Assembly: GCA_022821905.1 (NCBI GenBank)
Contig: JAJECS010000022.1
Span: 1-64,000 of the forward strand
DNA: 64,000 bases
Reading direction: 5' to 3'
Source of the DNA: Chloroflexota bacterium
GTDB taxonomy: Bacteria > Chloroflexota > UBA11872
Part shown: piece by piece, positions 57,319 through 60,384 of the stretch
Layout of the letters: every line of letters begins with the position of its first letter
Position numbering within the stretch: the first letter of the stretch is position 1
Translations under genes and position numbers: made by a program
The notes under the pieces: generated by a model
The model's input: only the letters and a program-made list of their open reading frames with translations
Told to the model about the DNA's origin: nothing
Databases searched by the model: none

Positions 57319-57669
57319 ATGAGCGACTGCCATCGGCTTCGCCGCTCCGCCGACATCGCGCGCGTGCGGCGTCGCGGAACGCGCGTGGCCTCCCCCTATT
57401 TCGTGCTGTTCGTCGCGCCCGGAGGCGCTGAGACGACCCGTCTGGCCATCACGGCGCCGCGCCGCCTCGGCACAGCCGTTGCGCGCAACCGCATGCGCCG
57501 CCGCTTGCGGGCGGCGTTTCGGCCACACCTGGCAACGCCGCAACCGGTCGTCGACATGGTGGCGCAGGCGCGCCGACCGGCGGCCGACGCCCCCTGGCGC
57601 AGTCTCACCGGCGCTGTCGCCCAATCCCTGGCGCGGGCACGCGCCGCACCAGCCCCGAGTCCGGCGTGA
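57319..57669 (+). CDS. rnpA: Ribonuclease P protein component
   Basis: 116 aa basic protein. The R-N-R motif is in GTAVARNRMRRRLR; the N-terminal RLRRSADIARVRRRGTR is also typical. It binds the RNase P RNA for tRNA 5'-end maturation. It overlaps the yidD start by 4 bases (GTGA). Confidence 0.9.
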   Translation: MSDCHRLRRSADIARVRRRGTRVASPYFVLFVAPGGAETTRLAITAPRRLGTAVARNRMRRRLRAAFRPHLATPQPVVDMVAQARRPAADAPWRSLTGAVAQSLARARAAPAPSPA

Positions 57670-57875
57670 AGCGACTGGTGCTCGTGTTAATCCGCGGCTA
57701 TCAGCGGTGGCTGTCCGGGGCGTTTGGCGCTCACTGCATCTACGAGCCGACCTGTTCCGAGTTCGCCGCCGTCGCCGTCGAGCGCCATGGCGTGGCTCGC
57801 GGGCTCTGGCTCGCGCTGCGACGCATCGCGCGCTGCCATCCCTTCGCCGCCGGCGGCTTCGACCCGGTGCCCTAG
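57666..57875 (+). CDS. yidD: Membrane protein insertion efficiency factor YidD
   Basis: 69 aa. Signature CIYEPTCSEFAAVA and RRIARCHPFAAGGFDPVP are intact (three conserved cysteines). It lies between rnpA and yidC. It helps insert membrane proteins with YidC. Start GTG 57666. Confidence 0.92.
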   Translation: MKRLVLVLIRGYQRWLSGAFGAHCIYEPTCSEFAAVAVERHGVARGLWLALRRIARCHPFAAGGFDPVP

Positions 57876-57890
57876 CCGCGGATCTGAGCC

Positions 57891-59531
57891 ATGGAAGTCT
57901 TCTCCAGCATCGGCGAAACCTGGCAGACGTGGGCCGTCAACCCACTCAGCGAGGTGCTCAACATCATCCGCGACGGCGTCGGCAGCTACGCCGTCGCGAT
58001 CATCCTGTTCACGATCGGGATTCGCACGCTCATGGTCCCGCTCACCGTCAAGCAAATCCGCTCTCAGCGGCGCATGCAGGTCCTACAGCCCGAAATGGCG
58101 GAGATTCGCCGCAAGTTCAGAAACGACCGCCAGGCGCAGTCGCAGGCCACGATGAAGCTCTACAAGGAGCACGGCGTCAGCCCGCTCTCGGGCTGCCTGC
58201 CGATCTTCGTGCAGCTGCCGATCTTGCTGGCGCTCTACGGCGGCATCCTCACCCTCAGCGGCCGCGGACTTCTCAACGAGCAGTTCCTCTGGTTCAACCT
58301 GGCGCGGGAGGATGCGACGATTCCGGTCCTCGGCGAATCCAGCCCGACGGCCCCCACCGACGTGCTGCTGGCGACGACGTTTCCGATCACGCCTCTGGAG
58401 TCGCAGCTTGCCGCGGAGTTTGCCGGCCAAAACGCCAACTTCCGCTTCACCATCGACACCGTCGACCCCGCCGATTCGGCGGCCGCGGTCAGCAGCGGCC
58501 GCGCCAGTGCGGCGTTCGTCCAGGAGCGGCAGGCGCTCGCCGACTATCCCCCGGGCACCTCGGAGGCTCGGCTCGTGCAGGCAGCCGCGTTCGTCGTCGA
58601 GCGCGATCGCCCGCTCACCCGGCTCACGAAGGTCGAAGCCGCCCAGATTCTGCGCGGTGAGATCACTGATTGGTCGCAGCTCGGCCTGGGCGCCGGCCCG
58701 ATCAACATCTATGGCCTCGGAAACGACATCGGCACCCGCAACCTGCTCTCGGAGATGCTCCTCGACGGCGAGCCCATACCGCCGCGAATCATTCAACTGC
58801 GGGCAACGGTCGAGGACTACGTCGCGGAGCTCATTGCCGACCCCGGATCGCTCGGCATCTCCGGGCCGGTCGTGCATGACAACGTGCGCATGGTCAACGT
58901 CGAGGCCGAAGGCGCCGACCGCGCATTCTCCGCGAACGTGGCCGCGCTGCGTGACGAGAATTATTCCCTGGCCCGTGAGGCCTACGTCTACTGGGCGCCG
59001 GGTGAATCGGACGGCGAGAAGTTCGTGCAGAAGTGGTGGGACAGCCGGCAGGGGCAAACCGCCGCCGGCAACGCCGGGTTCACGCGCATCCCCATCCAGC
59101 AGGACGTATTCGGCCAGGGCGGCTTCTACATCTCGCTGCTGGCGCTGCTCGCCGGTGCCTTCCAGTTCGTGCAGGCCCGGATGATGGCTTCACGCACGGC
59201 CGAGGGCCAGCAGGCGACGGTGAATCGGGTCATGCAATTCATGCCGATCATCGTGGTCATCTTCGCCTGGTCGTTTCAGGCGGGCCTGGTGCTCTATTGG
59301 GTGATTTCCAGCATCATTGCCATCGTGCAGCAATACTTCACCACCGGAACCGGGGCGCTGATTCCCGCGCACTGGCCCATCGCCCGCGACCTGACGGCCC
59401 GCCAGGCCGCCCCGACCCCGGCAAAGACCTCGGAAGACAAGGAAACCAGCGAGGCCGCGAGCCAAAGCCCAGGTGAGGGCGTGGCGACAACCCCGCAGCG
59501 GCGGCGACGCCGAAGGAGGCGCAGTGGCTGA
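57891..59531 (+). CDS. yidC: YidC/Oxa1 insertase with an inserted PstS-like binding domain
   Basis: 546 aa, far longer than the 250-300 aa of single-layer YidC. YidC core: TM1 about 33-55 with a positively charged loop (56-95), TM2 SPLSGCLPIFVQLPILLALY (97-116), then FLWFNLARE (132-140). Residues about 148-402 are PstS-like: TTFPITPLESQLAAEFAGQ, RLTKVEAAQILRGEITDW, DPGSLGISGPVVHDN, then EKFVQKWWDS...AGFTRI. TM3 (411-429, FYISLLALLAGAFQFVQAR), TM4 and TM5 follow, then a basic tail. The domain thus sits in the extracytoplasmic TM2-TM3 loop. Confidence 0.93.
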   Translation: MEVFSSIGETWQTWAVNPLSEVLNIIRDGVGSYAVAIILFTIGIRTLMVPLTVKQIRSQRRMQVLQPEMAEIRRKFRNDRQAQSQATMKLYKEHGVSPLSGCLPIFVQLPILLALYGGILTLSGRGLLNEQFLWFNLAREDATIPVLGESSPTAPTDVLLATTFPITPLESQLAAEFAGQNANFRFTIDTVDPADSAAAVSSGRASAAFVQERQALADYPPGTSEARLVQAAAFVVERDRPLTRLTKVEAAQILRGEITDWSQLGLGAGPINIYGLGNDIGTRNLLSEMLLDGEPIPPRIIQLRATVEDYVAELIADPGSLGISGPVVHDNVRMVNVEAEGADRAFSANVAALRDENYSLAREAYVYWAPGESDGEKFVQKWWDSRQGQTAAGNAGFTRIPIQQDVFGQGGFYISLLALLAGAFQFVQARMMASRTAEGQQATVNRVMQFMPIIVVIFAWSFQAGLVLYWVISSIIAIVQQYFTTGTGALIPAHWPIARDLTARQAAPTPAKTSEDKETSEAASQSPGEGVATTPQRRRRRRRRSG

Positions 59532-60384
59532 CCAATCAACCGACTCTTCCGACGCTCCGGAGAGCGTCGAGGCCTCCGGCGCATCCGTCGAGGAGGCGCT
59601 GCGCCAGGCCTTGCGGCAGCTCGATGCCACCATCGACGATGTCGACGTCGAGATTCTTTCCAGCGGCGGCTCGCGCCTGCTGCGCCGCGACGCCGAAGCC
59701 CGCGTGCGCGTGGTGCGCCGCGAGCGGCCCTTTTCCGCCACCATCGACGAGACCGAGCATGAGCTGCTCGCCGAGTCGGAACCGGAGCCTGAAGCACGCG
59801 CCGCCGAGCCGGCCGAGGTGCCGGCTGCCCCGCCTCCGCCCGACGACCCGCCGGCGCCCGAACCCGCGGAGGCGCCTGCCGCCGAGCAGCCCGCGCCCCG
59901 CGCCCGCGCGTCTCGCACGCTGGTCGAGAGCGGCGAAGAATTGCAGGACATCGTCGAGGATCTCCTCGTCGGCATGCTCGATCGCATGGGCTTCATTGCG
60001 GAAATCGAGCTCGTCGATGAGGATCCGCTCGCCTACAACGTCGTCGGCGACGACGATTTCTCCAAGCTGATCGGCCGCCATGGGTCCACGCTGCGGTCGT
60101 TTGGCTATCTCATCAACCTCATGGCCGGACGCCAGCTCGGCCAACCGTGCCGCGTGCTCATCGACGTCAACAGCTACCGCGCGCGCCGCGCGGACCACCT
60201 GCGCGAGCTTGCCGAGACCCTCGCCGACCAGGTGGACGAGACCCAGGAGCCCGTCACGCTGGAAGCCATGCCCGCCAACGAACGCCGGCTCATCCACGTG
60301 GCCCTGGCCGACGACGAAAACGTCCGCACCTACAGCATCGGCGAGGGCGACGAACGCCGGGTCGTAATCAGCCCCAAGGCCTAG
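59524..60384 (+). CDS. jag: Jag/KhpB RNA-binding protein (SpoIIIJ-associated)
   Basis: 286 aa. A Jag-N-like start (VEEALRQALRQLDATIDD) is followed by an acidic Pro/Ala spacer (about 75-130). The KH domain is about 170-235 (FSKLIGRHGSTLRSFGYLIN) and the R3H domain has ANERRLIHVALADD. It partners with YidC and KhpA in RNA binding and envelope control. GTG 59524 overlaps the yidC stop by 8 bases. Confidence 0.92.
   Translation: MADQSTDSSDAPESVEASGASVEEALRQALRQLDATIDDVDVEILSSGGSRLLRRDAEARVRVVRRERPFSATIDETEHELLAESEPEPEARAAEPAEVPAAPPPPDDPPAPEPAEAPAAEQPAPRARASRTLVESGEELQDIVEDLLVGMLDRMGFIAEIELVDEDPLAYNVVGDDDFSKLIGRHGSTLRSFGYLINLMAGRQLGQPCRVLIDVNSYRARRADHLRELAETLADQVDETQEPVTLEAMPANERRLIHVALADDENVRTYSIGEGDERRVVISPKA

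Follow-up and report, generated by a model that had tools for sequence, protein, structure and literature searches.

A predicted PstS-type solute-binding domain in the TM2–TM3 loop of a Chloroflexota YidC

YidC is ancient and usually essential. In E. coli, the P1 domain of this protein occupies the TM1–TM2 loop and has a fold other than that of PstS. Among the five-TM bacterial YidC proteins, B. halodurans YidC2 and SpoIIIJ are taken here as the comparators. In a review, P1 of E. coli YidC is described as contacting SecD/SecF and, perhaps, unfolded or emerging chains through a cleft (PMC7618853). The window analysed here is a 64,000-nucleotide stretch of a Chloroflexota genome, and the yidC gene that it carries encodes a chimera in which a PstS-type domain interrupts the insertase core.

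The yidC locus and the interrupted core

Five consecutive genes on the forward strand of the window form the locus. The rpmH gene (ribosomal protein L34; 57136–57270; Pfam Ribosomal_L34, 2.2e-22) was read from an inner ATG, and is followed by rnpA (RNase P protein; 57319–57669; Ribonuclease_P, 2.9e-23), yidD (57666–57875; YidD, 2.2e-27), yidC (57891–59531, ATG start) and jag/khpB (59473–60384; R3H, 2.2e-18; Jag_N, 1.5e-9). The KH_KhpA-B match of jag/khpB is slightly below its cut-off (31.2 against 32.1 bits), and its real start is probably near the yidC stop. Open reading frames and Pfam thus agree with the preliminary description, which had reported a 546-aa YidC in the usual rpmH-rnpA-yidD-yidC-jag locus. 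No pstCAB genes were found among the five nearby genes scanned (rpmH, rnpA, yidD, jag and citrate synthase).

Pfam detects only two domains in the chimera, 60KD_IMP and PBP_like_2. The former matches in two stretches (7.2e-52) that correspond to both halves of the YidC core, with PBP_like_2 between them, and the whole protein scores 194.9 bits against TIGR03592 (cut-off 84.3). With 60KD_IMP in both halves, its sequence places it in the YidC/Oxa1/Alb3 family, and insertase activity is predicted. Hydropathy places TM1 at residues 29–54 (57975–58052). This helix contains Arg45, which we take to be the groove arginine of YidC and which is invariant in all 15 rows of the YidC alignment. TM2 (about residues 100–124; 58188–58262) is followed by the usual YidC motif FLWFNLARED (residues 132–141; 58284–58313), identified by alignment with uninserted YidC and located directly before the insert (residues 148–402; 58332–59096). 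TM3 follows directly after it (about residues 409–432; 59115–59186; hydropathy and alignment), then TM4–TM5 (about residues 446–484; 59226–59342; hydropathy) and an Arg-rich C-terminal end (59493–59528) that the uninserted YidC of the sister family has too.

The proposed position of the insert, between the FLWFNL motif and TM3, holds when the chimera is aligned with uninserted YidC of the same phylum. The insert has no stretch resembling a membrane helix (19-residue hydropathy maximum 0.97). It is predicted to lie outside the membrane because its net charge is −15, whereas the C1 loop (10 K/R) and the C-terminal tail carry a net positive charge; the extracytoplasmic location suggested earlier is therefore retained as a prediction from hydropathy and charge distribution. 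The linkers are short, with approximately 14 residues before the first strand (156–162) and approximately 8 to 11 after the last (397–400), as judged from sequence and model.

The inserted domain and its ligand loops

The preliminary description read residues 148–402 as a PBP_like_2/PstS domain from short motifs, all of which are present, and named profile and structure searches as the check. Both were run, and both match the insert to a PBP-like fold. PBP_like_2 is detected at 5e-12 in the full protein and at 6.4e-13 in the insert stretch alone (49.5 bits; cut-off 27). A profile built from eight inserts matched nine PDB sequences at 0.001, with nearly the whole length aligned, the best being 4gd5 (4.2e-9) and 4q8r (5.1e-9). 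In a profile-profile comparison with six Chloroflexota PstS proteins, the insert aligned over 237 columns with a probability of 99.3 (E 1.7e-20). Against the narrower ptsS_2 family (TIGR02136), it scores 40.7 bits, below the cut-off of 206.6. The insert contains neither a cysteine nor a hydrophobic, signal-like stretch.

Modelling of the insert with AlphaFold2 points to the same fold (pLDDT 88, pTM 0.81). The 19-row alignment behind the model combined the window copy and five PstS-like proteins with 13 of the 16 titled relatives, and the sequence evidence is ranked before the model since the five PstS-like rows could have biased it towards a PstS fold. When this model was compared with the PDB by Foldseek, rows 1–42 of the best 50 were phosphate-binding proteins by title (rank 1, 1.8e-16), with TM scores by query length of 0.45–0.68 and rmsd values of 5.2–9.6 Å. 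We take the modest TM scores as a sign that the angle between the lobes differs, and the lobe arrangement in the model is uncertain. AlphaFold2 gave a poor model of the full-length chimera (16 chimeras, no PstS rows; pLDDT 37.6, pTM 0.20), on which nothing here rests. By predicted fold, then, the insert is a complete PstS-type domain.

The four loops that we take to be the PstS ligand loops can be located in the insert by alignment, and PstS residues are replaced in each. The equivalent of loop 1 spans residues 160–166 (58368–58388). In the second (residues 190–197; 58458–58481), the GGGSGTG of most aligned PstS proteins is replaced, and in the third (residues 207–213; 58509–58529) the PstS SR pair. 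The fourth, which has the pattern SRExxSGT in PstS, corresponds to residues 275–283 (58713–58739), where the Arg and Ser are lost and Gly281 and Thr282 are retained in the window copy. Five inserts were compared with six standalone PstS proteins, four of which are close to one another; identity between insert and PstS is approximately 20%, at which the ligand loops could be slightly misaligned. Across all five inserts, 0 of the 12 ligand-loop residues invariant in PstS are kept (2/12 in the window copy), as against 12 of the 46 outside the loops (20/46 in the window copy). The absence of the phosphate-loop pattern of true PstS, remarked on in the preliminary description, is thus borne out. Since these residues are lost, phosphate binding by the insert appears very unlikely from its sequence.

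The loops also differ in how they are conserved. In PstS, invariant positions are more frequent in the loops (12/31) than elsewhere (46/214; p 0.04); in the five inserts they are less frequent there (5/31 vs 73/214; p 0.06). For 16 chimeras, the counts are 5/31 in the loop equivalents and 68/217 in the rest of the insert, a difference that is not significant (Fisher p 0.09). The loop equivalents differ between the two genera that carry the chimera, and no conserved replacement site was found in the four of them among the five inserts or the 16 chimeras. The ligand-site comparison leaves out a seventh PstS-like protein, because the motifs are absent from it too and its ptsS_2 score is below the cut-off (115.5 vs 206.6 bits). 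This standalone protein from another Chloroflexota family (L088, 1992–2927, minus strand) has likewise lost the ligand motifs.

Distribution among genomes and selection on the insert

A single full-length frame encodes the chimera in 19/19 genomes of the window's family, which comprises two genera (6 and 13 genomes). PF02096 has exactly two matches in each of these genomes, and they are the two halves of the chimera, which is therefore the only YidC found. The class-level survey covered 41 genomes, namely these 19 and 22 others. YidC was found in 21 of the 22 (one gave none), and none of the 22 has a PstS-type insert in YidC; three had weak matches at non-YidC places. The sister family has YidC without such a domain (five genomes, in two of which YidC is cut or broken by assembly). 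A single insertion in the ancestor of the family is the simplest account that we infer.

At 1e-8, the insert profile matched 81 of 400 genomes of the phylum, i.e., the 19 and 62 more. Eight of these 62 matches were examined: none has a match to a YidC model, and seven are above the ptsS_2 cut-off and one below it. Two long frames that match the insert profile (G050 and G105) were rejected as chimeras, as ptsS_2 falls in their C-terminal halves and they have no match to a YidC model. The window's own genome also has a weak PBP match (G000:C27; 20.1 bits, below the cut-off), which belongs to a separate frame of 586 aa. Recent copying of the PstS of this genome is an unlikely source of the insert, whose profile misses that PstS at E 0.001.

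A wider scan with two peptide patterns, which detects close relatives only, covered one genome from each of 84,980 species. It returned 16 chimera records, all Chloroflexi/Chloroflexota MAGs and all among the same 19 family genomes, and three distant PstS-like matches, in one Porphyromonadaceae MAG and two cyanobacterial MAGs. In two cyanobacterial frames (L051, 3383–5428; L052, 4623–6806), a PstS-like domain is followed by a hydrophobic stretch, and in L052 also by repeats; PstS-like folds may therefore be membrane-anchored elsewhere too. In viral_contigs, the insert profile, the genome's own PstS and a cyanobacterial homologue picked up no relatives, whereas each scan with PstS alignments picked up three loci, located on two contigs and read as PstS-like.

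The TM2–TM3 loop carries extra sequence in other members of the phylum. In three genomes of another Chloroflexota genus, g106, the YidC proteins (L068, 1384–2826; L069, 1384–2850; L070, 451–1899, minus strand) have approximately 165 extra residues in this loop. Their extra stretch lies before the FLW motif, whereas the chimera insert lies after it. In the one copy scanned with Pfam (L068), the stretch has no PBP domain and nothing over the cut-off. A fourth genome of the g106 family, from a different genus, gave no YidC match, while in other families of the g106 order 11 of 12 genomes had contiguous YidC matches and one had none. Additions to this loop thus seem to have arisen two or more times in the phylum. 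Three sister-family YidC proteins (L023, 1465–2475; L024, 862–1905, minus strand; L026, 919–1929, minus strand) also have a longer TM2–TM3 loop, in which two cysteines precede the FLW motif and perhaps form a disulphide on the outside.

Selection was estimated by the Nei-Gojobori method in 18 of the 19 chimeras (one record of genus g2 was left out), from pairs that are non-independent. In genus g1 (15 pairs), median dN/dS was 0.136 for the insert, 0.038 for the core and 0.439 for the C-terminal tail. The corresponding medians in g2 were 0.079, 0.035 and 0.152, where 58 (insert) and 56 (core) of 66 pairs were unsaturated and used. Between-genus values were set aside, as synonymous sites are near saturation; between-genus identity is 46% for the insert and 77% for the core. 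Within genera, dN is roughly three- to fourfold higher in the insert than in the core (0.050 vs 0.012; 0.109 vs 0.038). Given the low within-genus dN/dS, the insert is maintained by purifying selection, which is weaker than that on the core.

Possible roles and comparison with known systems

By analogy with P1, the insert is best explained as a domesticated, ligand-dead PstS domain that would offer clients or Sec partners a platform outside the membrane, a proposal that we regard as about as likely as not. A PstS-type solute-binding domain would have entered the TM2–TM3 loop of YidC once, in the family ancestor, and would have kept its fold under purifying selection while losing the phosphate-binding residues. 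The short linkers would keep it close above the outer end of the core, where the folded platform could contact emerging extracytoplasmic client segments or SecDF/SecYEG, and so aid folding or translocon assembly. The partners contacted by E. coli P1 are presumably available, since SecD/SecF-type matches were found in 24/24 genomes of the order. The different insert of g106 in the same loop also favours the proposal, as it shows that extracytoplasmic additions there recur. The long loop should itself need SecYEG, because YidC is said to translocate segments typically under 30 residues (PMC8675477). A large P1 deletion that abolishes SecF binding is reported to leave E. coli YidC still inserting named clients (PMC7618853), so a P1-like part need not be of great consequence. 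Against the platform proposal, substitutions accumulate more rapidly in the insert than in the core, a pattern that folding constraint on a passenger could also produce; sister-family YidC has no PstS-type domain, and the model fits PstS only at the TM scores given above. The PBP lobe could instead be a moving part that clamps and releases client segments or a small molecule, its motion passing through the linkers to TM2/TM3 by the groove and so gating insertion from outside; we think this quite improbable.

Sensory roles are common among PBP folds, and the preliminary description had raised, next to a folding platform, a lobe that holds or senses a ligand. The lobe could bind a different small molecule or peptide, its opening and closing signalling to the groove; the complete PstS-type fold and the short linkers would suit such a ligand-gated YidC, and a new pocket could have taken over from the phosphate site. 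The loop equivalents, however, show no special conservation (p 0.09 and 0.06, as above) and are unlike between the two genera, which leaves ligand gating unlikely and the idea of a ligand-holding lobe weakened by the sequences; by analogy, a folding or docking platform is the better fit. That the domain still acts as a phosphate receptor, linking insertion or uptake to phosphate, is suggested by its homology to PstS, but the loss of the ligand-loop residues and the separate PstS of the same genome (G000:C24; ptsS_2, 277.5 bits) make this highly improbable.

An accidental in-frame insertion could also have been tolerated as a neutral passenger, its fold kept since misfolding on YidC would be harmful. 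The higher dN of the insert and the additions tolerated by the same loop elsewhere in the phylum fit this account. Yet the insert is full length in all 19 genomes of both genera despite its low identity between them, it shows stronger constraint than the C-terminal tail in each genus, and the loss of a useless 270-aa burden would be expected; we consider a passenger somewhat unlikely. The possibility of an assembly or binning artefact was raised from the outset, and all 16 titled chimera records are indeed MAGs. The related genomes refute it: the junctions are identical in 19/19 genomes of two genera, one chimera lies in a single 3.0 Mb contig (G006), and the insert is under purifying selection.

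In the literature, no title or abstract start among the matches listed dealt with a YidC that carries a PBP domain, or with any domain in the TM2–TM3 loop, in a search covering few subscription journals. A PstS-type domain in this loop appears to be new; the insertase core and the PstS fold are each already known. Throughout a whole family, the sole YidC found per genome has absorbed what is, by fold, a transporter receptor domain. The family thereby offers a natural experiment on the contribution of an extracytoplasmic domain to an insertase, a question that is also unsettled for P1.

With the PstS family (TIGR02136, PF12849; PDB 4gd5, 4q8r, 9l8j, 1twy), the insert shares its predicted fold and a near full-length alignment; it differs in being built into a membrane protein, in having lost the ligand residues and in falling below the ptsS_2 cut-off. 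With five-TM bacterial YidC, the chimera shares both core halves, the FLW motif, Arg45, the C1 stretch, TM3–TM5 and the rpmH-rnpA-yidD-yidC-jag locus, and differs by approximately 270 extra residues in the TM2–TM3 loop that form a domain. Its insert is distinct from P1, which in E. coli lies in the TM1–TM2 loop, whereas the chimera has a PstS-like fold in TM2–TM3. Like the chimera, diderm YidC with P1, as described for E. coli (PMC7618853), bears a large extracytoplasmic domain on the same core.
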